A stretch of DNA of 64,000 nt, from positions 1 to 64,000 of the forward strand of contig NZ_JAAKDW010000012.1 in NCBI RefSeq assembly GCF_011038845.1. Direction: 5' to 3'. Below, in pieces: positions 8,449 through 55,418 of the stretch; position 1 is the first letter of the stretch; the number at the start of each line of letters is the position of its first letter. The stretch comes from Enterococcus sp. ZJ1622 (lineage in GTDB: Bacteria; Bacillota; Bacilli; Lactobacillales; Enterococcaceae). Made by a program: the position numbers and the translations under genes. Below the pieces are notes generated by a model that was not told the DNA's origin, did no database searches, and saw only the letters and a program-made list of their open reading frames with translations.

Positions 8449-10170
8449 ATGGGAAATAATGTTATCATCGGAATCGTCATTGCAATCATTATAGTCGCCA
8501 TTGTCGTCTTTTTGGTTAGTTACTGGATGAAGAAAAAAAATCAAGACCGATTGGACGCTTTGGAAAAACGCAAAGAAGAGTTATTCGACTTGCCTGTGAT
8601 TGAAGAAGTTGATGATGTTAAAAAAATGCATCTGGTAGGGCAAAGCCAAAATACCTTTCGTGAATGGAGTCAAAAATGGAACGACATATCTACCTCTTCG
8701 TTCGCTGAGTTGGAGAGCCAGATCTTCGAAGTGGAAAACCTCAATGAAAGTTTCCGATTCTTAAAAGGCAAAAATGCTGTAGCAGAAGCCGAAAGTACGA
8801 TGGATCAGATGGAAAAAGAAGTCGCTGAGATCCGTGAAGGCCTGAAAGAATTGCGAGAAACAGAAGAACGCAATTCATTGGCTGTACAAAAGGCATTGGA
8901 TGTCTATGAAGAATTGAAAGGAAAAATCAAAGAGGACGAACAGGAATACGGCCCTGCTCTTTTTGAGTTGCAAAAGCAGGTCAAAACGATCGAAAACGAA
9001 TTTACGCAATTTGTCACACTGAATACCTCAGGTGATCCCGTAGAAGCACGCGAAGTGTTGGATAAAGCAGAAAAACATACGTATGAAGTGGAAGCTTTGA
9101 TGAAAAAGATCCCGCCGTTATATGAAGATCTGCATACGACTTTTCCCGAACAGCTTGAAGAGATCAATGAGACTTATGTCAAATTGACGAGAGAACAATA
9201 TGTTTTTCCAGAAGAAGACCTTGCTGGTGATATCGAAAAAGTAAGCAGACGAATCGAAAATTCGTTGGCGAACCTTGAAAAAACGGAAATCGAAACGGTT
9301 GAATTTGAAAATCGTGAAACAGCAGATCTGATCGAATCATTATATGATATCTTAGAGCGGGAAATGGACGCAAAGAGTTACGTGCAGTCGAACCAGTCGA
9401 CGATCGAAGCTTATATCAAGCATGCTGCTAAAAACAATCGTCAGCTATTGATCGAATTAGATCACACCGCACAAAGCTACGCCCTGAATCATAATGAAAT
9501 CGGTCGAGTTCGCGGCTTCCAGACAGAAGTGGAAGAAATCGAGCGTCAAAACGAACAAATGAAACCGCAGCTTCAACAGCATCAGGTACCGTATTCAGAA
9601 GTACGTGTATTTTATAAGAACATCTTCAAAGTTTTAGAAGATATCGAGACCCAGCAAGTCGAAATCGACGACTCTTTACATGAATTGAGAAAAGGCGAAA
9701 AAGAAGCGCAGGAAAAAATCGATACATTCGAATTCAAATTGCGCAGCTTGAAACGTTTTGTTGAGAAACAGCGTTTGCCTGGATTGCCTAATGATTATCT
9801 GGAATTCTTTTTTGTCGCAACGGATCGTATCGAAGAACTCAGTGTTGTGTTGAATAAGATCCGAGTGAATATGGAAGAAGTCAACCGTCTCGTTGCACTG
9901 TGCGAAGAAGATTTAGAATTATTGGACAAGAAGACGCATGATCTAGTTGACGCCGCAGCACTCACTGAACAGATGCTGCAATACGCAAATCGCTATCGTC
10001 ATACACACGAAGAGATAAAAGAAGCGATCGAGAAAAGCTACTATCTCTTCAATAAAGAATATCATTATCAAGAAGCTTTGGACGAAATCGGTACAGCGCT
10101 AGAACGCGTGGAACCAGGTGCATTCAAACGGATCGAAGATTTTTATTTCAATAATCCGGATTTGGTTTGA
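8449..10170 (+). CDS. ezrA: Septation ring formation regulator EzrA
   Basis: A membrane-anchored negative regulator of FtsZ ring assembly and coordinator of divisome and wall synthesis in Firmicutes. The 573-residue protein has one N-terminal transmembrane helix (residues ~4-26, hydrophobic IIIGIVIAIIIVAIV), then spectrin-like coiled coil to the end. This is the standard EzrA topology, with a short outside N-terminus and a large cytosolic rod. The C-terminal YYLFNKEYHYQEALDEIG is family-typical. The start is ATG 8449 behind GGAGGAA. It is monocistronic, with a terminator at 10199-10248. Confidence 0.95.
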   Translation: MGNNVIIGIVIAIIIVAIVVFLVSYWMKKKNQDRLDALEKRKEELFDLPVIEEVDDVKKMHLVGQSQNTFREWSQKWNDISTSSFAELESQIFEVENLNESFRFLKGKNAVAEAESTMDQMEKEVAEIREGLKELRETEERNSLAVQKALDVYEELKGKIKEDEQEYGPALFELQKQVKTIENEFTQFVTLNTSGDPVEAREVLDKAEKHTYEVEALMKKIPPLYEDLHTTFPEQLEEINETYVKLTREQYVFPEEDLAGDIEKVSRRIENSLANLEKTEIETVEFENRETADLIESLYDILEREMDAKSYVQSNQSTIEAYIKHAAKNNRQLLIELDHTAQSYALNHNEIGRVRGFQTEVEEIERQNEQMKPQLQQHQVPYSEVRVFYKNIFKVLEDIETQQVEIDDSLHELRKGEKEAQEKIDTFEFKLRSLKRFVEKQRLPGLPNDYLEFFFVATDRIEELSVVLNKIRVNMEEVNRLVALCEEDLELLDKKTHDLVDAAALTEQMLQYANRYRHTHEEIKEAIEKSYYLFNKEYHYQEALDEIGTALERVEPGAFKRIEDFYFNNPDLV

Positions 10171-23474: not shown

Positions 23475-23511
23475 ATTGCTAATTTTTCAAAATAGAAAGG
23501 TGGGGAAAATA

Positions 23512-24987
23512 ATGCTTCAGATTTTTTTGAAAAATGGATTACGTTCTTACAAGTTTAAAAATAGTCAGCTGAAGCCGTTAAGCTTTGTTGAAGAAGAAAA
23601 GAAAGGTTCAATCTTTATTTACTATTCTAAAGAAGCCTTAGCTGTTTCAAGAGGAGTTGTGATTACTTCTATAGAAGCCATTGAGGAACAAGCGGATGTG
23701 ATCACGCATTGGACGCCAAATGTTTATCGATATGGAGAATATACTGATGAGAAACGTCTAGTTGTTAAAGGCCATTTCGAGAAGAACTTACGTCAAATCA
23801 ATACCTTTGTCGTTGATATCGATTCTAAAGAAAACCACCAAGGAGAGATCATTCTAGCATGTATCGACCAACTAGGTTTTATGCCGACATTGATTTTAGA
23901 ATCTGATTTTGGCTATCAAGTCTATTTTGTATTAAGTACACCAGCTTATGTGACGAACAAAAGCAATTTCAAAGTAATCGACGTGGCGAAACGGATTTCT
24001 ATGGCTATTCGATCGCAGCTAGCGAAACAGTTAGTAGGTGTAGATATTGGCTGTAACCATTTTGGTATTGCTCGATTTCCAAATAAAAGAAACATTGTGT
24101 TTTACGAATCAGAGAATCGGTATTCATTTTCAGAGTGGATTAATTGGTCGATGAAACAAGCGGTGGATCAAAAGATAGAGGCAAAAGCGAAGTTGGTTGT
24201 TTTTCCAGAGAAAAAAGAGTATCGACAAGTCGATGAACCTTGGTTTTACCTCTTGTTAAGAAAAGCCGATATTATCGGCGGAGAGGGACGATTGGGGCGG
24301 AACAACGTAATCTTTACGCTTTCACTTGCCTATTTTTCTTCGGGGTATAGCCAAGAAACCTGCGCATATAACATGTTTGAATTCAATGAACGTCTAAAAG
24401 AGCCTTTATCTGAAAAAGAAGTTGAAACGATCGTAAAGAGTGCGTATTCCAGCAATTATCAAGCGGCCCGACGAGATTTTATCTTGGAATTGTGCCAGGA
24501 ATGGATTGCTTCAGATATCCAAGAAAAAGAGCTGTTTATCCAACGTCGGGGATGGTGGAAGTTCAAAAAGCCAAGAAACCAGCGGAAATATAATCACCAA
24601 CAAGAATGGAAAACGGATCTTATGAGCTACTTAAATCAAGTAGAAGCTCAGGGACAAGGATACATAGAGAGTACAAGAAAAGAGTTACAGGAGAAAATTG
24701 GTATTCCTACACGTAGCCTTGACCGACTTTTAAAAGACTTAAAAAAAGAAAATAAGGTGTTTTACCGAAGTAAGCGTGGTAAAGGAGGAGGAATTCTGTT
24801 GATGTCAGTACGAACATTCTTAAAGCAGTGTTTACGGCGTACACGTGAGAAGCAACAAGCCTATCTTTCTCATTTGAAGGACTTGTTTTCGCTAACGAAA
24901 AAAGAGCTAGGAATGATTGTAGCGCTTTTTTTAGAAGAGCATTGTAGAAGCGAACAACTGAATTTATTTGAAGCCGATATTGGCTAA
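23512..24987 (+). CDS. Replication-initiation/primase-like protein with PriCT domain
   Basis: A 491-residue protein likely to prime or initiate element replication. The N-terminal half has archaeo-eukaryotic primase-like features: FVVDIDSKEN (~92-101, metal-binding DxD), PTLILESDFGYQVYF and NHFGIARFPN (~180-189). A PriCT_1-like helical domain (~255-320, GEGRLGRNNVIFTLSLAYFS and LSEKEVETIVKSAY) follows, then a winged-helix-like region (STRKELQEKIGIPTRSLDRLL, ~385-405). ATG 23512 follows GAAAGGTGGGG. It is the first gene of the element, as in theta-type plasmid replication modules. The domain call is by motif reading. Confidence 0.75.
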   Translation: MLQIFLKNGLRSYKFKNSQLKPLSFVEEEKKGSIFIYYSKEALAVSRGVVITSIEAIEEQADVITHWTPNVYRYGEYTDEKRLVVKGHFEKNLRQINTFVVDIDSKENHQGEIILACIDQLGFMPTLILESDFGYQVYFVLSTPAYVTNKSNFKVIDVAKRISMAIRSQLAKQLVGVDIGCNHFGIARFPNKRNIVFYESENRYSFSEWINWSMKQAVDQKIEAKAKLVVFPEKKEYRQVDEPWFYLLLRKADIIGGEGRLGRNNVIFTLSLAYFSSGYSQETCAYNMFEFNERLKEPLSEKEVETIVKSAYSSNYQAARRDFILELCQEWIASDIQEKELFIQRRGWWKFKKPRNQRKYNHQQEWKTDLMSYLNQVEAQGQGYIESTRKELQEKIGIPTRSLDRLLKDLKKENKVFYRSKRGKGGGILLMSVRTFLKQCLRRTREKQQAYLSHLKDLFSLTKKELGMIVALFLEEHCRSEQLNLFEADIG

Positions 24988-25046
24988 AAGTAAAATGCGC
25001 CAATTGCCTTTTACAATATATCTATGATAAGGAAGGGAGTCATTCA

Positions 25047-25343
25047 ATGGAATTAACGCATTTACATTTAGAAAGAATCTGTTGTGAGGTGACTTTATTT
25101 AGTCGCCAACGATGGAGGATTTCTCAACAAAAGATCCAACGAATTATTGTGGATGATTCAGGAAAGCAGCAAGAAATCGTCACAAGAGAGCTAGGGGTCG
25201 ATGAAGATGCGGAATTGTTTTTTACACAGATCAAATCTATTTTTAGAGATGGAAAGATTGTGGCTTGTCGTGGCTGTCCACAACACCCCTTAAAAATTTT
25301 ACGCGAAAACTATGCAAAAATTAAAGCAGGAACTAAAGAATAA
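25047..25343 (+). CDS. Small hypothetical protein
   Basis: A 98-residue soluble protein, not recognised. It has Cys residues at CRGCPQHP near residue 75, which could be a metal or redox site, and a mixed alpha/beta pattern. The start follows GGAAGGGAG with good spacing. It sits between the replication protein and the large non-coding repeat-bounded region, so a role in replication or copy control is possible but unsupported. Confidence 0.6.
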   Translation: MELTHLHLERICCEVTLFSRQRWRISQQKIQRIIVDDSGKQQEIVTRELGVDEDAELFFTQIKSIFRDGKIVACRGCPQHPLKILRENYAKIKAGTKE

Positions 25344-25358
25344 TCATTGAACCAACAA

Positions 25359-25850
25359 ACTAGCCTTTTTTCGTTTGTTAGTTTCTTCAAACTAGCAAAG
25401 GAAAAGCCATTGAGAGCAGCACACGGACACGAAGCAGATAGGAATTATTTGTGGGTGGAAGGAATCTCTTGAACTAGAGTTGAACCGAAGCGACACACGT
25501 AAACTGATTTTTGATGTGTTTTTTTCAGATCATTGACAACTGAATATCAACAGAACTTTCTAAGTTGATCAGCGTGCCTATTCGGGGCTTAGGAAGGATA
25601 AAACGCCTAAAATAGTACGGCTAGAAAAAGCGGTGCGTTTGGATGGGTGAGGCACATACTAGGAAGGAGAGTTGCGAAGACTCAGCTAGCACGAAAACAA
25701 AAGATGACGAGAAATCGTCCGCTCGTTTTCAAGGGAGCGATTCTTTCTTTCTACGAGTTTGAGGTTGCGAATGCTAGAAACCTTGCGAAGTCAGACATTT
25801 TTTCTGTAAAACAGGTAAAAGGAAAAACTAGCAAACGAAAAAAGGCTAGT
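25359..25850 (+). ncRNA. Candidate large structured non-coding RNA (~490 nt) closed by long terminal pairing
   Basis: A 548-nt gene-free interval. Its ends are complementary: 25359-25384 (begins ACTAGCCTTTTTTCG) pairs with 25825-25850 (ends AAAGGCTAGT) over 26 nt with a single G-T wobble. Inside are several compact hairpins: AACTT-TCT-AAGTT at 25554-25566, GACGA-GAAA-TCGTC at 25706-25719 with a GNRA tetraloop, and directly after it CGCTC/GAGCG at 25720-25739. The GC content is locally higher and no open frame has a ribosome binding site. This architecture resembles ornate large RNAs such as ROOL or GOLLD of mobile elements; class membership is untested. The strand is inferred. Confidence 0.6.
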
Positions 25851-25891
25851 GTAATAAAGTAAAATGACTAAAAATTGAAAGGAAAGAAACT

Positions 25892-26185
25892 ATGTCAAAT
25901 AAAAATACAACGCTCAGGAATCAATGTCCCAAAATGAAAAGCAAAAGCCCAATGAACACTAAAACGGATGAGCGAAGACTTCAGCGAACTCCGTCAGGGC
26001 TAAACTTTTTCTTAAATAAAAAAGTAATTGTTGTGACTACGGACAGCAAACGGATAGAAGGAATTTTAACTTTTATTTCAACGTATGATATTTTGATTGA
26101 GTTATTAGACAAACAACGAACAAGGACATACATGACACTTTTTAAACACGCATTGAAATATGTGCGCTGTGATGAGCCGAACTGA
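25892..26185 (+). CDS. Hfq/Sm-like RNA-binding protein candidate
   Basis: A 97-residue protein. Residues 1-35 are basic and polar. Residues ~38-95 show the Sm-fold pattern of Hfq: FLNKKVIVVTTD (first strands), RIEGILTFISTYDILIELL matching the Hfq LxGxIxxFDxFxILL signature, and FKHALKYV matching the Hfq Sm2 motif YKHAISTV, including the uridine-contacting Lys-His. The start follows GAAAGGAAAG. It lies 42 nt after the structured RNA candidate. Enterococci are known to lack canonical hfq, so an element-borne version would be notable. The assignment is by eye. Confidence 0.6.
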   Translation: MSNKNTTLRNQCPKMKSKSPMNTKTDERRLQRTPSGLNFFLNKKVIVVTTDSKRIEGILTFISTYDILIELLDKQRTRTYMTLFKHALKYVRCDEPN

Positions 26186-26203: not shown

Positions 26204-26476
26204 ATGCAAAAAAGTCTATATAATCCATTAATAGAGAGAGCCAGCCAGACAATAGATTTAAAAAAAGTAAATCAACTAACTGAATATTACGAATCAGATA
26301 TTTTATATAAAATTTCACAAAGTCAAAATAAAAAACTGTCAATCAAGCAATATACTACTGGATTTTCTTTAAAAGAAAAACGTTGTTTTTTGGGTTTATT
26401 GAAACATTTCAAGCGAGTGAAGATTACTTATTGTTTGGAAGCTGGAGTATTATGTCAATATTTGATTATGGCATAG
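26204..26476 (+). CDS. Small hypothetical protein
   Basis: A 90-residue protein, not recognised. It is basic, predicted mainly helical (LIERASQTIDLKKVNQLTEYYE), with GFSLKEKRCFLGLLKHFKRVK in the second half. The start has a strong GGGGGAG site and lies 18 nt after the Hfq-like gene, so the two are probably co-transcribed. YCLEAGVLCQYL near its end resembles YYCLEAGII in the TIR-domain protein encoded downstream, but this is too short to interpret. Confidence 0.55.
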   Translation: MQKSLYNPLIERASQTIDLKKVNQLTEYYESDILYKISQSQNKKLSIKQYTTGFSLKEKRCFLGLLKHFKRVKITYCLEAGVLCQYLIMA

Positions 26477-26534
26477 AAGAAATAGATGAAGTCTGATGGT
26501 GGATACACAGATTTTGATGAAAGGAAAAAGTGAA

Positions 26535-27224
26535 ATGGTGAATGAGAAACGATGTTTTTTCTGCGTGCTTTTTTTGCTAGGAATGAGTCTGCTAGTCCTT
26601 ATAGGTGGGGAATTTGGTTTGAAGGTAGAACAAAAACATAAAGCAGAAGTATTCAAACAAAACCTTAAAATGGCAAAAAAAGTATCTATTCATAAAAATG
26701 TAAAAAACTATGGAGATCAGGCACAAGGAGTAACGAATGATTTAGCTCTGTCAGATATGATCTCTATTCAAGAACATGCAATAAAAAAAGGAATCACAAA
26801 ACAAGTAACTGGACATATTCAAATACCTAGTATCCACTGTGATTTACCGATCTATTGTGGGGCGAATTCCGATACATTAAGTTTGGGGGCTGCCACTTAT
26901 TTTTATGACGATGCGGAAATGGGCAAAGGAAATTATGTTCTTGCTGGACATAACATGGAAGAACCAGGTGTTCTTTTTTCAGATTTGTTAGATGTACAAA
27001 AAGGGGACATGATGGAGTTAACAGGAATTGATCATGTTTATCAGTATCGGGTGACCAACCAATTTGTTGTACCAGAATATTATACATTAGAAGATGGGTT
27101 TCCAGTAGCAGGATCTTTTTTAGCTTTGCCAGAATCAGGTGAGAAACCCAAATTAACGCTGTTTACGTGTATCTATACGGCGCAAGGGAAAGAACGATAT
27201 GTTGTTCAAGGAGAATTAATCTAA
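26535..27224 (+). CDS. Class A-like sortase
   Basis: A membrane-anchored transpeptidase that joins LPXTG-type proteins to the cell wall. It has ~229 residues with an N-terminal transmembrane helix (CFFCVLFLLGMSLLVLIGG). The catalytic set is visible: His in VLAGHNME, Cys in LTLFTCIYT, Arg in KERYVVQGE. There is no C-terminal membrane segment, unlike pilus class C enzymes. ATG 26535 is preferred (AAAGG upstream); an in-frame ATG at 26496 adds 13 residues. It is probably the housekeeping-type anchor enzyme for the pilus and adhesin genes downstream. Confidence 0.85.
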   Translation: MVNEKRCFFCVLFLLGMSLLVLIGGEFGLKVEQKHKAEVFKQNLKMAKKVSIHKNVKNYGDQAQGVTNDLALSDMISIQEHAIKKGITKQVTGHIQIPSIHCDLPIYCGANSDTLSLGAATYFYDDAEMGKGNYVLAGHNMEEPGVLFSDLLDVQKGDMMELTGIDHVYQYRVTNQFVVPEYYTLEDGFPVAGSFLALPESGEKPKLTLFTCIYTAQGKERYVVQGELI

Positions 27225-27379: not shown

Positions 27380-28465
27380 ATGTTAAAGAAGAAAGAAGGG
27401 ATTGAGATAGAGGGGATTTTTCGAATTTATAATCCATTATTTCTGGAATCTTTATTAAAGAAGTCAAGTGACGATTACAGAAAACATCGATTTCATATTT
27501 CTATAAGTGAATTAGGGATTATCCAAGATAATAGAGAGTTTTATTTTGTAAAGAAAGCAATTGAAAATTTTTTTGAATATAGATTTTCGAAAACAATATT
27601 AGTACAATTGAATCGACGAGAAAATTTATTAGAAATAGGAGAAATCCATATGAAAAAAAGAATTACTTATCGCTTTCCTTACGAAAAATATGATTCATAC
27701 TACGAAGTGATTAAAGAAATAAATGACCTTGTCGATGTTGATGGGGTATGTGGAGTTTTTGCTAATAATATTTATTATTGTTTAGAGGCAGGAATTATTG
27801 TTGAAACGAATTCTAATTTTGAACAAATAAAACAAGTAGCAGAACGTGCTGGAATGGAGGTTGATTATTCTTTTGGAATAGAAGAACTTACAGTTGGGAT
27901 GAGTCATAGACAATATAATAACGTTATTTTGAGAGCTGGTCATGATATAGAAGGAATAAAATTATCTCTGGCTCCACTTTTTTCATTTCCCTCGAAAAAA
28001 AATATAGAAGAAAATAATTATAGCGTAAAGACTATCACGAAGAAAAAAATATTTGTTTCTTATTCGCATAATGATAAAAATGTGGTTCGAAAAATCATTA
28101 GCGATTTGCGAGATTATGGTCTGGATTTCTGGATAGATGAAGAACAAATAGATGTTGGAGATAGGTTAATGGAGCGAATTGATGAGGGCATTAGACAAGC
28201 AGATATTCCAATTGTATTTTTAAGTGAATCTACTAAAAATGCTATGTTTGCAAAGCATGAGCTGTTGAGCTTTTTTACGAAGGTTATTTATCAACAATCT
28301 TCAAAGAAATCTTGGTTTATTGTTAAACTAGATCAAGTAAACCCTAATGATATTGTTTTTGGATTAGGTGACTTCAAGTATATTGATTATTCTGAAAGTT
28401 GCATTGAGGAAATTGCACAGGCAATTGAAAGGAAAATAAAAAAAACTAATAATTATAGATTTTAG
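27380..28465 (+). CDS. TIR-domain protein with uncharacterised N-terminal region
   Basis: A 361-residue protein. Residues ~222-361 form a bacterial TIR domain (TIR_2 type): KKIFVSYSHNDKNVV, then FWIDEEQIDVGDRLMERI, ADIPIVFLSES and FAKHELLSFF, where the Glu fits the NADase catalytic position. The first ~215 residues are not recognised. Bacterial TIR proteins commonly act in anti-phage or anti-plasmid NAD+ depletion; that role is inferred. It is more AT-rich than its neighbours, lacks a clear ribosome binding site, has its own terminator and sits between two related sortase copies, so it looks like inserted cargo. Confidence 0.85.
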   Translation: MLKKKEGIEIEGIFRIYNPLFLESLLKKSSDDYRKHRFHISISELGIIQDNREFYFVKKAIENFFEYRFSKTILVQLNRRENLLEIGEIHMKKRITYRFPYEKYDSYYEVIKEINDLVDVDGVCGVFANNIYYCLEAGIIVETNSNFEQIKQVAERAGMEVDYSFGIEELTVGMSHRQYNNVILRAGHDIEGIKLSLAPLFSFPSKKNIEENNYSVKTITKKKIFVSYSHNDKNVVRKIISDLRDYGLDFWIDEEQIDVGDRLMERIDEGIRQADIPIVFLSESTKNAMFAKHELLSFFTKVIYQQSSKKSWFIVKLDQVNPNDIVFGLGDFKYIDYSESCIEEIAQAIERKIKKTNNYRF

Positions 28466-28556: not shown

Positions 28557-29084
28557 ATGGTTATTTTTTTTAGGTGTTGCTTTAATCGTCTTTTGCAGGT
28601 GTTTGGCTATGTTAGCAATCAAAAACATGAAGGAGAGGTGTCTAAGCAAAATATAGAAAAAAAGATGCCCGTAGATCAAATCAATGCACATGCGAAGAGT
28701 TATAAGGACGATGAAAAAAACGTCAATAATGATATGTTTGTGTGGTAAATGTTGTCCATACAAAAAGAAGCAACTGAAATGAGCAAAGGAAACTATGTCC
28801 TAGCAGGTCATAACATGGAAATGCCAGGTGTTTTATTTTCTGATATTCAAAAGTTGTCATTAGGGGAGGTGATGGACTTAGTTAGTAACGATGGCGTCTA
28901 TCGTTACAAGGTAACGCGTAAATTTATCGTACCTGAGTACTTTAAATTAATCGATGGCATTCCTGAAGAGAACTCTTTCTTGTCTTTGCTAAAGAAAGGA
29001 GAGAAATCCTTATTAACGTTGTTTACTTGTGTTTATACGTCACAAGGAAAAGAAAGATACGTGGTACAGGGAGAGCTACAATAA
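28557..29084 (+). pseudogene. Degraded class A-like sortase (second copy)
   Basis: This is a decayed paralogue of the sortase at 26535-27224. The C-terminal half is well preserved, with VLAGHNMEMPGVLFSDI, LTLFTCVYT and KERYVVQGEL. The N-terminal half is shifted (the transmembrane segment is lost), has a stop at 28746-28748, and lacks the ~50 residues that in the intact copy lie between the SIQ segment and EMGKGNYV. The first ATG (28557) still has a good GAAAGGAG site. It probably arose by duplication of the sortase, with the TIR gene now between the copies. It is not expected to be active. Confidence 0.82.
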
Positions 29085-49565: not shown

Positions 49566-51589
49566 TGCTAGAGACAATCAAATCAGTTTTTGCACCACAA
49601 AATGATCAAAAAGTACTTGATCCATTAAAGCAACTAGGAAATCGTGAAATAGAAATTTTAAAATCCAAAGGGTATGATTTAGATTTTTTAAAACAAGTGA
49701 TGCCACAAGGTGGATTAAATTTCGATGAAGAGTATGTGACGTATGGCAATGGTTATTCACGTTGTGTCACAGTTTATCACTATACCAAAAATCCTACTCT
49801 TTTTTGGTTAGCCAACTTGATGAATAATCCTCATACAGTGGCGACACTAGATGTTAGCACAGATGAAAAGCAAAAAGTAATTGATCAAATCAACCGTGCC
49901 TTAGATGAATTAAATGATCGATCAGATAATGAGCGAAAAGCGACTGAACGAAATAAAAGTGCGGAAGAATACCTGGAATTATCGGAATATGCTCGAAAAT
50001 TGACTTCTAATGGTGAAATTTCTAAACAAGTCAAAGTGAGAGTACATGTTTACGGAAACACGATTCAAGAAGTAGACGAACGAGCGCAGGAATTGATCGA
50101 AAATCTCAAAGGAATGGATTACCGTGGGGTGACCTATCTGCATAAAACCAAAAGAGACTGGCAATCGATGTTCACTATGTTCGATGAACAAGCTGAATGG
50201 TTCGGAAATATCAAAGGGCAATCACTACCATCGTTAAATATTGGCGGAGGGTTCCCGTTCCACCACCAAACGCTAAAAGATCCAGGAGGGACACAGTATG
50301 GCGAAACCATGACGGGTGGCCCATTCGTTTGGAATGCCACGTATAAAAATAGCGTCCGTTTGTCTACCAACACCTTGCTTCTAGGAATGATGGGGGCTGG
50401 TAAATCAACTGTTCTTAAAATGATTGCGGAATCCCATTTAGCTAAAGGAGATTTCATTTGGGGATTTGAAAAGGGAAAAGACTTTATTCCCTTTTTAAAA
50501 GAATATAATGGCATTATGGTGCGATTAGATGGGTCTGACGGAATGATCAATCCTTTAGAGATCTTTGCGACACGGACGTATGACGATGCTTCCAATCTGT
50601 ATGAGGATGGATCAGTCAAAGATTTACTGATCAATGAAGCAGCGTCTTATCAAACGCATTTAGACAAAGTGGTTTACCAAGTACAACTTGTTAGTCCGCA
50701 ATTAACAGGAACGATGAAAGCAGAATTCAAGACCTACTTGAATCGTTTTTATGAAGAGTATGGAACAGTGCCACGTGGCTTTACTTCCTCCAATGCGCGT
50801 TCAAATACTGAGGCACAAGTCACAGGGAAAGATCCAGAAGCTTATCCGACGTTCAAAGAATTTTTAGCCTTTTTAGGACAACTGGAACTACCAGGTGCTT
50901 CCCAAGAGAAAAAGAATCGGAAAGAAGAAATGGAATCTATCGTGGAATCCTTATGTGAGACGTATGGCATGATTTTTGATGGCCATAGTACGATTCGCCA
51001 CCTTGACCAACAACAGTTGGTCTTTTTTGATATTGACTCTATTACAGGTTTAGATCGCGGGGTACAACAATGTCAAATGTACATGGCGATGACGTTGATT
51101 TGGAATCAAGCATTGATTCAAGGACGAAGACAACGACGTTTGATTAAAGAAAACCAGATGGAAGAACAAGACTTCAAACGTTTCTTGGCCATGATCGATG
51201 AGTGTCATAATGCAATAAATCCAGATTTCATTGAAACGGTCAATTATGTGACAAACTTCCAACGAGAAATGCGTAAAGTAGAAGCGATGACGGTTCTAGC
51301 TACCCAATCGCCACAAGAAATGGTGCCAGAAAATATGTCTTCTGATAACTTCTCGAAACTGAAGAAAGTCTTTGAATTTTCTTCTACGAAGATCTTCATG
51401 CGTATGGACGAATCTATTTTACGTCATATAGAAGGGTTAGTCGGTAAATCAATGACGAATTCAGAATTAGAATCGATTCCTCAACAAGAACAAGGAGAGG
51501 CTGTCATTAATTTTGGTTCGAAAGAGACGATTCGTGTTCATTTTAGTCCGAATAATCGACAGTTAAAATTGTTTGATGGAGGAAAATAA
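49565..51589 (+). CDS. VirB4/TrsE-type conjugation ATPase
   Basis: Energises the secretion channel. 674 residues. The N-terminal ~230 residues are VirB4-specific (EEYVTYGNGYSRCVTVYHY, VRVHVYGNTIQEVDERAQEL). Walker A is LLGMMGAGKSTVLKMI (~271-286) and Walker B FLAMIDECHNAINP (~539-552), followed by VLATQSPQEMVPENM. ATG 49565 follows GAGGTGA; TTG 49562 is a weaker alternative. Its TAA overlaps the ATG of the wall hydrolase gene. Length fits the TrsE/TcpF-like class. Confidence 0.93.
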   Translation: MLETIKSVFAPQNDQKVLDPLKQLGNREIEILKSKGYDLDFLKQVMPQGGLNFDEEYVTYGNGYSRCVTVYHYTKNPTLFWLANLMNNPHTVATLDVSTDEKQKVIDQINRALDELNDRSDNERKATERNKSAEEYLELSEYARKLTSNGEISKQVKVRVHVYGNTIQEVDERAQELIENLKGMDYRGVTYLHKTKRDWQSMFTMFDEQAEWFGNIKGQSLPSLNIGGGFPFHHQTLKDPGGTQYGETMTGGPFVWNATYKNSVRLSTNTLLLGMMGAGKSTVLKMIAESHLAKGDFIWGFEKGKDFIPFLKEYNGIMVRLDGSDGMINPLEIFATRTYDDASNLYEDGSVKDLLINEAASYQTHLDKVVYQVQLVSPQLTGTMKAEFKTYLNRFYEEYGTVPRGFTSSNARSNTEAQVTGKDPEAYPTFKEFLAFLGQLELPGASQEKKNRKEEMESIVESLCETYGMIFDGHSTIRHLDQQQLVFFDIDSITGLDRGVQQCQMYMAMTLIWNQALIQGRRQRRLIKENQMEEQDFKRFLAMIDECHNAINPDFIETVNYVTNFQREMRKVEAMTVLATQSPQEMVPENMSSDNFSKLKKVFEFSSTKIFMRMDESILRHIEGLVGKSMTNSELESIPQQEQGEAVINFGSKETIRVHFSPNNRQLKLFDGGK

Positions 51590-52105
51590 TGGAAAGCCAA
51601 AATGAAAGTTTAATCAAGCAGTATGTTAAGCGTCGTACAAAGCGACGCTTATTTTTGTGGTTGTTTGGTACTTCTGCAGGTTTGCTTACCCTCTTGATCA
51701 CTGTGTTTGTGACGCTTTTTCTAATCCTTGCGGCGGGGTCGATTGATAACTCTGATTCAGGTTCAAGTAGTGGTGGTGAAGCTTTTACAGGAGAATACTC
51801 AGAAGGCTTACCCATCTATAAAGAAATCAAAGGGAAAGGTCCTTTTTCTGATGAGATTGCGCAATATGCCGTAGGAGCAGCCGTGAAATATAAATTATTA
51901 CCAAGTGTGATTCTCTCGCAATATGGGTATGAATCAGCGTTTGGCACGTCATTATCTGCTAAAAACGACTTGAATTTTTTTGGGATCACTTGGTTTGATG
52001 GGTGCTTGTTCCCCAAGGGAACCGCACGTGGAGTTGGCGGGATTGAAGGGGGTTGGTACATGAAGTTTCCCAACTCAAAAGCCGCATTCTCATATTACGG
52101 ATTTA
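51589..52105 (+). CDS. Conjugation wall hydrolase (GH73 + M23), 5' exon
   Basis: This is the first 172 codons plus one base of a 401-residue bifunctional peptidoglycan hydrolase, interrupted by a group II intron. It has a cytosolic tail, a transmembrane helix (~23-48) and a Ser/Gly linker. The start of a GH73 glucosaminidase domain follows: FSDEIAQYAVGAAVKYKL, PSVILSQYGYESAFGTS (catalytic Glu) and NDLNFFGITWF. It opens the wall for the secretion channel, like TcpG/TrsG-type proteins. Without splicing, translation stops at 52132-52134. The second exon is 54730-55418; the 1,206-nt join is exactly in frame. Confidence 0.9.
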
Positions 52106-52815
52106 GTGTGACGCGTTTCTCTATAAGTGAATAATCGCGAAAAGAGAGGGTTGTTTTCTTAACAACTACAACTGAATGTCTGACAGTTGGAATGAAAGTC
52201 GTCATGTTGACTGAAACAACTGGTCTAAGACTCCTGCATGCGTATCTGATGATCAGGTCAGATGGGTGTGAAGCCAGGTGAAGTCGGCAGAATAATTTCT
52301 AAGTGAACTCTAAGTTCATATGAATGCAGATATGCCGGGACGCTATAAATTATCTATGGTGAGAATGTTCATGATAGAACTGACGAACTTGCGAATGTAC
52401 AGGTCTAAACGTAGACTTATCCGAAAGGATATAAGGTTGTAAAAGCAACGAATGACACCGAAAAGTAAGAATTTTAACTATGAAATTCGGGATGAGGAAC
52501 AATGACCTCATAGTAGCATTCAGGCCTAAAGTGAGCACCTAAGGATAAATATGGAGAGCTAAGATATTCGGAACGTGGAAAGCGAGAAACATTGATTAAA
52601 CTGACTGATTTTCAGAAATGGTGGATATAAGAATAATAGAATTATTCGAAATTCCTTAGTTCTCGTGAGAGTAGGGGCACAGTACCGATGAAACGTCTAA
52701 TAAACGTGGAGGGATAGCCCCAAGACTTGTATGAACAATTAAATTTTAAGTTAAATGAAACTCACAGGGTCGAGTAAGATGATGGGACTATTAGAATAGG
52801 AGAAACAAACCATCG

Positions 52816-54615
52816 GTGAGTACAAGATTGCGATATAACGAATACTATAATATGCAAAGTACGTTTGATTGGTTGTATCAAAGAAGTTTAAGCAATGCAA
52901 CGAAAGGTATTAATTTATACGACATTATTTTGTCGGAAAACAATATTTTACTTGCATATAGGATAATCAAAACTAATACTGGTTCAAAGACAGCTGGTTG
53001 TGACAAACTTACGATTGATAATTACAAATATCAAAATAAAATCCAGTTTATCAATGATATACGTGAGGATCTACGAAAATACCATCCAGATGAGGTAAAA
53101 AGAGTCATGATTCCTAAACCAAATGGAGATAAACGACCATTAGGAATACCGACTATGCGAGATAGATTAATTCAACAAATGATCCTTCAAGTAATAGAAC
53201 CTATCTGTGAAGCGAAGTTTTATAAACATTCCTATGGATTTCGTCCAAATCGAGCTACGTATCATGCAATAGCTCGTAGTAATTTTCTAATTAACCAAGG
53301 TTATCAACACGTTGTAGATATGGATATTAAAGGATTTTTCGATAACGTTAATCATTCAAAGTTATTGAGTCAGCTATACACCATTGGTGTAATGGATAGA
53401 AGAGTTCTTGCTGTAATTAGTAAAATATTAAAATCACCTTTATCAAATGGAACTATTCCTTCAAAGGGTACTCCACAAGGAGGAATTTTATCTCCTTTAT
53501 TGTCTAACGTAGTATTGAATGATTTAGACTGGTGGATAAGTAGCCAATGGGAAACAATTAGAACACGTAAAAGATTTAGAAATTTATCCTCTAAATTAGG
53601 AACTCTACGAACAACAACAAATCTAAAACGTATGTATATAGTCAGATATGCGGACGATTTTAAAATATTTACTCGTGATTTCAAACAAGCTAAAAAAGTA
53701 TATCATGCAGTAAAAGAATATTTAGAAAATCATTTAAAGCTAAGCATATCACCTGAAAAATCAAAAATTACTAATTTGAGAAAACGAAGTTCGGAATTTT
53801 TAGGTTTTGAAATAAAAGCTGTTCCGAAAAGAAATAGATATGTGGCAAATACACATGTATCCAAGAAGAATATAAAACGAATAAGAAATCAGCTAAAAAT
53901 CTATATCAAAAAGATTCAATATAACCCAATAAGACGAAGTATTTATGATTACAACACTTACGTGTTGGGCGTTCAGAATTATTATAGATATGCAACACAT
54001 GTCAATGTTGATTTCTCAAAAGTAGCCTATTCACTCTTATATACGATCAAAAATCGATTAAGTCAGGTAGGTAAATTCGGAGTTCCAAGAGATCCTCCAA
54101 AAACTTATCAAAAATTGTATCGTGGAAAATGTAGAACTATAAAAATTGGAAAAGAATATTTATATCCTATAGCAGATATTAAATGGCAAATGGTTCCACA
54201 GTTTAATCAAGAAATCTGTAACTATACAGAAAACGGACGGTCAATAACCTTTAACAGACTGAAACAAAAGATTTCTGTAGAATTGAGCAAACTATTAACT
54301 ATATCTAAGCAAGGATATAATTTAGAATTTACAGATAATCGTATTTCTAAATATTCTATGCAAAATGGGAAATGTGCGGTTACAGGGGAGTTTTTGAAGG
54401 CAGACACGATTCACTGTCACCATATAATCCCAAAATACTTGGGTGGAACGGATGAATTTTCAAATCTAGTAATTATACACCCCTGGGTGCACCAATTGAT
54501 ACATTCAAATGATTCAAAGACAATCGATAAGTATTTGTGCTTACTCAAATTAAATAAAAAGCAAATTGAAAAAGTAAACAAATATCGTGAGAAATGTAAT
54601 TTAACATTCATTTAA
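52816..54615 (+). CDS. ltrA: Group II intron reverse transcriptase/maturase with HNH endonuclease
   Basis: A multifunctional LtrA-type protein for intron splicing and retrohoming. 599 residues. RT blocks: KRPLGIPTMRDRLIQQM (~111-127), HSYGFRPNRATYHAI, VVDMDIKGFFDNVNH (~170-184), TPQGGILSPLLSNVVL and the catalytic VRYADDFKIF (~277-286). The X/maturase domain follows (~350-500). A C-terminal HNH/GIY-like zinc region has CAVTGEFL, IHCHHIIPKYLGGTDE and NLVIIHPWVHQLIHS (~525-580). The start is GTG 52816 behind AGGAG. The enzyme appears intact. Confidence 0.95.
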   Translation: MSTRLRYNEYYNMQSTFDWLYQRSLSNATKGINLYDIILSENNILLAYRIIKTNTGSKTAGCDKLTIDNYKYQNKIQFINDIREDLRKYHPDEVKRVMIPKPNGDKRPLGIPTMRDRLIQQMILQVIEPICEAKFYKHSYGFRPNRATYHAIARSNFLINQGYQHVVDMDIKGFFDNVNHSKLLSQLYTIGVMDRRVLAVISKILKSPLSNGTIPSKGTPQGGILSPLLSNVVLNDLDWWISSQWETIRTRKRFRNLSSKLGTLRTTTNLKRMYIVRYADDFKIFTRDFKQAKKVYHAVKEYLENHLKLSISPEKSKITNLRKRSSEFLGFEIKAVPKRNRYVANTHVSKKNIKRIRNQLKIYIKKIQYNPIRRSIYDYNTYVLGVQNYYRYATHVNVDFSKVAYSLLYTIKNRLSQVGKFGVPRDPPKTYQKLYRGKCRTIKIGKEYLYPIADIKWQMVPQFNQEICNYTENGRSITFNRLKQKISVELSKLLTISKQGYNLEFTDNRISKYSMQNGKCAVTGEFLKADTIHCHHIIPKYLGGTDEFSNLVIIHPWVHQLIHSNDSKTIDKYLCLLKLNKKQIEKVNKYREKCNLTFI

Positions 54616-54636
54616 TTGGAAATAAAACAAGTTGGA

Positions 54637-54670
54637 ACGCCGTATGAGGCGAAAGTCTCACGTACGGTGT
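54637..54670 (+). other. Group II intron domain V
   Basis: The 34-nt catalytic hairpin begins ACGCCGTATGAGGC, has a GAAA tetraloop and ends with the complementary strand CACGTACGGTGT. The catalytic triad position reads CGC rather than the commoner AGC. It lies 22 nt after the RT stop codon and 59 nt before the intron 3' end. Confidence 0.9.
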
Positions 54671-54729
54671 GGAGCAGGGGAAAAGTTGGAGAATTCCTAC
54701 TGGAATTTCAAAGACTTACCTATTGCTAT

Positions 54730-55418
54730 TGGTAGCCACACAGTCCAATTTTAATGCTTGCGTTGGTAATAAAAGCCCTGGGGCGAGCCTATTGATCTTA
54801 GGTCGAGGGGGGTATGCCGCTGCGGGAATTACGGAAGATAGTGCGTATTATAAAAATTGTATGTCGATTATTAATTCCAATCAATTAACTGAATATGATG
54901 AATTCGCCATCAAACATTGGGGTGAAGGTGGCAATAATAATGGTCCAATTACTGGTGAATGGACGAACCCGTTCCCTGGTAGCAGTTTAGATAAAAGTTC
55001 CTTTAGCGGTGGGCAATTATTTGGAACGAATCCAGGGGGAGAGTTCCGACCAAATGGTTTTCATGACGGATTAGATTTTGGTTCAGTCGATCATCCAGGA
55101 AGTGAAATTCACGCGGTGCATGGAGGGAAAGTCGTGTACGTTGGCAATCCTGGTATTTCAGGTTTAGGTGCGTGTGTGATCGTGATTAATTACGACGGCT
55201 TGAATATGGTGTATCAAGAATTTGCAAATAGTACAGGGAACTCTCGTGTGAAAGTGGGGGATCAAGTGAAAGTGGGTCAAGTCATCGAAACTAGAGATAC
55301 GGAACACTTACACTTAGGATTTACCCGAATGGATTGGCGTCAAGCACAAGGCCATGCCTTTATAGATGATGGGACGTGGATTGATCCCTTACCATTTTTA
55401 AACAGCAGTAAAAAATAA
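54730..55418 (+). CDS. Conjugation wall hydrolase (GH73 + M23), 3' exon
   Basis: The second exon encodes the end of the glucosaminidase domain (NFNACVGNKSPGASLLILGRG, then YDEFAIKHWG). A C-terminal M23/LytM endopeptidase follows, with the zinc ligands His and Asp in NGFHDGLDFGS (~281-291 of the spliced protein) and HxH in TEHLHLGFTR (~363-372), plus GGKVVYVGN. This domain cuts peptide cross-links; together the domains fully open the wall. A partial frame from an intron ATG at 54669 exists but is not the natural start. Confidence 0.9.

Follow-up and report, generated by a model that had tools for sequence, protein, structure and literature searches.

An element-borne Hfq-like protein and its place behind a PrgR and structured-RNA module in Enterococcus

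Introduction

Can a mobile element bring an Hfq-like protein into a bacterial family that seems to lack Hfq, and if so, which RNAs would it serve? The question is raised by a gene at 25892-26185 (+) of the window, the 64,000-nucleotide (nt) stretch of Enterococcus sp. ZJ1622 analysed here (contig NZ_JAAKDW010000012.1, positions 1 to 64,000). The gene has an ATG start and encodes P0001, a protein of 97 amino acids; just ahead of it lie a large structured RNA and a gene of the PrgR family. An earlier note, made from the DNA letters alone, had read P0001 as an Hfq-like protein paired with this RNA. According to a published account, Hfq, CsrA and ProQ all appear to be missing in enterococci (PMC7724050). 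The analysis supports the Hfq-like reading of P0001 well; the proposed pair of protein and RNA stands on weaker ground and is confined to a single clade.

A divergent member of the Sm superfamily

P0001 begins immediately behind a Shine-Dalgarno-like GAAAGGAAAG, and its open reading frame (ORF) contains an Sm1-like motif, RIEGILTFISTYDILIEL, and an Sm2-like motif, FKHALKYV. The ratio of nonsynonymous to synonymous substitution rates (dN/dS) is 0.20-0.25 across the three closest copies, and this purifying selection, together with the leave-clade-out profile test described below, rules out a chance ORF. The protein is basic, with an isoelectric point of 10.0 and a net charge of +7 over its first 36 residues. 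In an alignment of 18 relatives (A2), D51, K85, H86 and A87 are invariant in every row, while F84 and K89 are kept in at least 90% of rows. Residues F84-K85-H86 form the (Y/F)KH at the turn between strands 4 and 5, where KHA is a hallmark of Hfq (compare Lys56/His57 of Hfq). A promoter scan stayed at chance level (9 found, 11.9 expected), and no terminator-like site was found between the structured RNA and the gene.

Profile searches reveal a relationship that the single protein does not. Alone, P0001 gives no match to the Hfq models of Pfam (PF17209, PF21979) or NCBIfam at E up to 1; its sole Pfam match is DUF150_C, the C-terminal SH3 domain of RimP (E 0.075), and its best PDB match, the archaeal Hfq MJ1435, has a non-significant E of 0.5. 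A profile of 13 of 14 translated proteins (A1; P0011, with no standard start codon, was excluded) matches MJ1435 at E 4.3e-7. The A2 profile, built from P0001, its copy on contig C7 of the same genome, 8 of 11 loci and 8 of 9 outside loci, reaches E 6.8e-12; near-duplicates (L027, L030), a duplicate (L045) and a locus without a start codon (L031) were left out. Weaker PDB matches of A2 include Hfq of S. aureus (0.0012), Asl2047 (0.0034) and Hfq of B. subtilis (0.0093). A leave-clade-out hidden Markov model (HMM), made from the 15 rows outside the window clade and run on the 614 ORFs of the window, ranks P0001 first at 36.5 bits (E 1.2e-10), and 5000 shuffles of P0001 score at most 7.8 bits.

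Eight relatives scanned one by one all miss the curated cut-off, scoring at most 24.6 of 27 bits with PF21979 and 19.1 of 27 with PF17209; their best match to the Pfam entry 'Hfq related', at E 2.8e-5, is below threshold. The PDB list of A2 also contains chance-like rows, such as a biofilm surface protein (2.1e-4) and fatty-acid-binding proteins (0.012), and weight is therefore placed on the MJ1435 match.

The predicted structure points the same way. AlphaFold2, run on the monomer, models a helix and a five-stranded bent barrel, with a predicted local distance difference test (pLDDT) score of about 90 for most of the core. Helices at residues 25-31 and 35-40 precede strands at 44-49, 54-62, 66-71, 79-84 and 88-93, placing Lys85-His86 at the strand 4/5 turn; residues 1-20 fall below pLDDT 50, and 1-24 have no predicted structure. 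The helices stand ahead of strand 1 in the model, and the alignment leaves the counterpart of the E. coli glutamine Q8 ambiguous. Among the 50 structural PDB matches listed for the model, 45 are Hfq and all belong to the Sm superfamily. P0001 therefore combines, in prediction, the helix and five-stranded barrel of the Sm/LSm superfamily with its Sm1 and Sm2 motifs. Its fold is very likely Sm/Hfq-like, and profiles and model together place it in the Sm superfamily as an Hfq-like protein of an accessory kind, carried by an element. The earlier note had claimed an ORF with both motifs and a Lys-His pair and an Hfq/Sm-like identity, to be checked by an Sm fold in a structure prediction, and the motifs, the invariant K85 and H86, the modelled barrel and the family profiles agree with it on each.

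Canonical Hfq in the host family and relatives of P0001

Canonical Hfq (PF17209) was found in none of 105 genomes of the host family, a set that includes 15 genomes of the same genus and that of ZJ1622 itself; the model gave a match in 5 of 14 controls, including B. subtilis and M. jannaschii. For 98 of the 105 family genomes, completeness is 90% or more and contamination 5% or less. The suggestion that the genus lacks a canonical hfq is confirmed in this sample.

Relatives of P0001 are sporadic across the family and order samples. The A1 search finds one in 6 of the 105 family genomes, ZJ1622 included, and in 4 of 395 genomes sampled from the order, and the A2 search matches 22 of 398 genomes of the class and 9 of 398 of the phylum. 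Among the 29 ORFs listed from these class and phylum loci, 12 carry the Hfq-type motif YKHAIST; in a tree of low power (67 columns), P0001 lies outside such proteins, which we take to be canonical Hfq by their motif. Some wider relatives reside on large contigs (G163:C1, 2.0 Mb; G028:C1, 1.4 Mb), so the wider family is not solely plasmid-borne. The closest clade has three members, namely P0001, its copy on C7 and one on contig C18 of genome G047 (G047:C18), the latter two sharing 72 and 67% protein identity with P0001. Genome G047 also contains a second, shorter Hfq-like ORF (G047:C9:4118-4279, L042).

Plasmids, for which the record collection can show plasmid copies only, yield relatives by tblastn in 23 of 72,556 records, all typed mobilizable. 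These records come from Macrococcus, Macrococcoides, Levilactobacillus and Mammaliicoccus, with none from Enterococcus, and 12 of the 23 were used for locus reading. Viral contigs searched with P0001 and PrgR gave no relative, and a phage collection gave no match to the structured RNA and, for the protein, a single weak one (E 0.5). As a separate observation, a gene for an Fst-type type I toxin, a kind of toxin that is RNA-regulated, is annotated directly behind the Hfq-like gene, on the opposite strand, in all 8 Macrococcus and Macrococcoides plasmid loci read (L003, L017, L018, L019, L020, L021, L022, L023).

A large structured RNA and its regular neighbour PrgR

The RNA spans 492 nt at 25359-25850 (+) and is enclosed by a closing stem, P1, whose arms form a 26-nt inverted repeat at 25359-25384 and 25825-25850 (+). 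From the end of P1 (25850) to the start codon of the Hfq-like gene the gap is 41 nt. Copies on C7, in G047, G102 and G010 are 93, 85, 76 and 71% identical to that of the window; plasmids of E. faecium carry it at 76% and those of E. faecalis, pCF10 included, in part at 72-74%. The E. faecalis type matches 251 of 72,556 plasmid records, all from Enterococcus.

Several tests support a structured molecule. The window RNA has a fold z-score of -4.45, and the long closing stem recurs in all nine copies, two of them distant. In five copies, the stem is reached by 0, 0, 0, 1 and 0 of 2000 shuffles, and eight of nine copies exceed all 100 shuffles in pairs at least 250 nt apart. In an alignment of seven copies (A4), P1 pairs in 98.4% of 190 cells, whereas sliding the stem yields no more than 57.1%; 8 of the 29 pairs have both partners exchanged in at least one row, and in three measures none of 500 shuffles attains the covariation of P1. 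Not every test agrees: the G088 copy fails at 250 nt (15, shuffle maximum 17), its 23 at 200 nt being reached by 1 of 2000, and 76 of 500 shuffles attain as many double-sided changes as P1 shows, while 472 of 500 attain its count of further pair types. The structure inside P1 is uncertain. Taken together, the nine copies, the compensatory changes in P1 and the z-score uphold the earlier claim of a large structured RNA nearby, and the 42 nt given for its distance from the gene was correct to a base.

Known large bacterial RNAs in Rfam include ROOL, GOLLD and OLE. Covariance models of Rfam found no match at the gathering level over 25359-25850 and chance-level ones only over 25300-25950 (E 4.2 and 4.7), nor any match over the copies in seven related loci; membership in a known Rfam family is accordingly rejected, and the RNA may merit a family of its own. 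A RAGATH-18 RNA match (70.9 bits; L051 2397-2463, -) was seen 5' of the structured RNA in G061.

In pCF10, the RNA copy (9139-9565, L060) contains an annotated ORF at 9176-9397, between the prgR homologue and sea1/prgA. The genes prgRST are named in PMC8265641, and from gene order this ORF is taken for prgS. Of seven copies aligned, those from E. faecalis, two in number, are alone in keeping its frame open; the other five have at least three stops in every frame, so a conserved protein at this position is rejected and an RNA product is the simpler reading. Early pCF10 genetics reportedly hinted at an RNA role for prgS. A partial literature search found no title or abstract describing a structured prgS RNA.

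Ahead of the RNA lies a gene for a 98-residue protein of the PrgR family (25047-25343, +; alignment A5), with dN/dS of 0.11-0.17. By tblastn it matches 255 of 72,556 plasmid records, all Enterococcus; among the best 60 matches listed, four are annotated PrgR (42.9-44.0% identity, best E 8e-18), and in a small set the pCF10 copy is 38% identical (E 8.3e-18). A Pfam scan covering five of eight PrgR proteins gave no match above cut-off, and a PDB search with PrgR found no relative (best E 0.22). PrgR is the runner-up of the leave-clade-out HMM in the window (8.5 bits, E 0.064), and the A2 profile gives non-significant matches to ORFs at the PrgR position in G047 (E 0.12) and G010 (E 0.49; L094, L095). 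These weak profile matches hint at a small-barrel fold for PrgR as well.

The RNA follows PrgR in all nine loci where tblastn finds PrgR: the window, C7, G047, G010, G102, E. faecium L013, E. faecalis L014 and L061, and pCF10. G102 resembles L013, and L014, L061 and pCF10 resemble one another, so the nine represent about six kinds. Across the 105 family genomes, five PrgR places in four genomes coincide with five long RNA matches. Upstream of two RNA copies found as short matches, in G061 and G088, a similar-sized ORF looks PrgR-like by eye, unconfirmed by the PrgR profile, which ranks the G088 ORF first of 292 but at E 0.17 and does not place the G061 ORF among the six listed.

The Hfq-like gene behaves differently. 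It stands directly behind the RNA in three loci (the window, C7, G047:C18), yet its profile, applied to 11 stretches around PrgR/RNA modules, finds the protein only on C7 and in G047. The earlier note had proposed a dedicated pair of RNA chaperone and RNA; as a general rule this is rejected, with PrgR as the RNA's regular neighbour and the Hfq-like gene in 2 of 11 stretches. By its distribution in the loci examined, the gene is an optional add-on to a wider module of PrgR and RNA. In its simplest history it would have been added behind a pre-existing PrgR-RNA module in the window clade.

A narrower version, in which the protein, within the window clade, is a specific partner on which the 492-nt RNA depends to fold or to act, is unlikely. 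All three clade members do lie directly behind the RNA, which is well conserved among them; but these loci are close relatives, for which a single event may account for the adjacency, and 9 of the 11 stretches examined, a majority, have the RNA without the gene. The two also part ways among plasmids: none of the 23 records with an Hfq-like relative is from Enterococcus, versus 255 records with PrgR, and the Macrococcus, Levilactobacillus and Mammaliicoccus plasmids carrying the relatives show no match to PrgR or the RNA, all of whose matches are in Enterococcus.

The surrounding element

The element-like stretch opens with a replication/primase-type protein with a PriCT_1 domain (23476-24987, +; PF08708, E 1e-19), and a similar ORF also precedes the module on C7 and in G047. 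The stretch occurs a second time on contig C7, which matches 24381-26175 at 85% identity. The Hfq-like gene is followed immediately by a 90-residue ORF with no family above cut-off (26204-26476, +) and then by a sortase (26496-27224, +; PF04203, E 1.2e-21), the first gene of a surface-protein stretch. Between sortase genes lies a TIR-domain protein (27380-28465; PF13676, E 2e-19), which may serve the element as a defence gene. A short sortase-like ORF, of 111 residues (28749-29084), matches only the later part, positions 30-124 of the 125 in the sortase profile and is perhaps a truncated duplicate of the first.

Further downstream are pilin-like and adhesin-like proteins and putative transfer ORFs, all labelled by inspection. 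A group II intron (52167-54729) sits in the transfer-type region, with a long internal ORF (52816-54615) and flanking ORFs at 51589-52134 and 54669-55418. Near 23.4 kb, gene content switches from chromosome-type (5S rRNA, tRNAs, T-box) to plasmid-type, reflecting either an integrated element or an assembly join. Gene content thus bears out the proposed mobile-element location, as an element-like stretch. Control of replication, also proposed earlier, is not indicated, as the module stands between the replication-type gene and adhesin, sortase and transfer-type genes in the loci read.

Possible roles

P0001 is probably best explained as an accessory, element-borne Hfq-like ring acting on the element's adhesion and transfer transcripts. 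The protein most likely assembles into a ring, which would bind RNA through its Lys-His side and basic N-terminal tail. It most likely acts post-transcriptionally on the prgS-type RNA, on downstream adhesion or transfer messenger RNA (mRNA), or on both, altering stability, folding or translation. Action on the element is suggested because no hfq was found in the host family and because the gene sits between the PrgR/RNA module and adhesin-sortase-transfer-type genes; on balance we lean towards an RNA-binding role on element transcripts. A broader scheme, in which conjugative elements bring an Hfq-like ring into Hfq-less hosts where, together with PrgR, it operates a large structured RNA, the true prgS product, to control adhesion and DNA transfer post-transcriptionally, is tentative and rather improbable.

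The ring might instead be directed at the host, acting on chromosomal mRNAs or small RNAs. PMC5348863 provides a precedent, as overexpression of the plasmid-borne pXO1 Hfq3 affects host physiology, and PF17209 revealed no competing Hfq in the family genomes. The gene's place in an adhesion- and transfer-type stretch points to element transcripts, however, making a host-directed role distinctly unlikely. Very remote is another small barrel (SH3-like, RimP C-terminal or KOW-like) with protein or DNA rather than RNA as its ligand: DUF150_C is the only Pfam match of P0001 and reaches E 2e-4 in one relative, and KOW and Gemin6 matches occur among the relatives scanned, but archaeal Hfq leads the family profiles by several orders of magnitude, the KHA at the strand 4/5 turn is invariant, and every structural match listed is of the Sm superfamily.

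Borne on a conjugative-type element, P0001 is a small, testable candidate for a protein assisting regulatory RNAs in enterococci, which seem to lack Hfq, CsrA and ProQ, and through the structured RNA the prgR-prgS region of pCF10 would gain an RNA molecule as a product open to experiment.

Comparison with known systems

Plasmid-borne Hfq-like proteins are known; new here are the divergent variant, the Hfq-less host family and the place in a PrgR/prgS-type RNA module. A partial literature search found no title or abstract describing an Hfq-like protein on Enterococcus plasmids. P0001 resembles canonical Hfq (PF17209) in its Sm1/Sm2 layout, its Lys-His pair and its predicted helix and five strands. 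Unlike canonical Hfq, its family has DGK or DSK rather than NG in Sm1, and P0001 has ALKYV rather than AISTF/V; PF17209 gives it no score and its relatives sub-threshold ones. The archaeal Hfq MJ1435 of Methanocaldococcus jannaschii (PDB 2qtx, 4x9c, 5dy9) shares 26% identity with P0001 over a fragment of 46 positions, yet its solved chain, at 71 residues, is too short to include the long basic N-terminal tail.

Hfq3 of Bacillus anthracis pXO1 is, like the relatives of P0001, an Hfq-type protein carried on a plasmid, but its host has two chromosomal Hfqs as well, unlike the host family of P0001 (PMC5348863). The available part of that account mentions no PrgR/RNA module, and the two proteins are likened here by description. 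Similar in arrangement is pCF10, where a PrgR homologue and then a homologous RNA also stand ahead of surface-protein genes, although the stretch scanned has no Hfq-like gene. The comparable region of pCF10 is under heavy post-transcriptional control, in which PrgU, a small RNA-binding protein with a PUA fold, acts on prgQ transcripts (PMC8265641). With this precedent, it is plausible that such an operon would encode one more protein that binds RNA.
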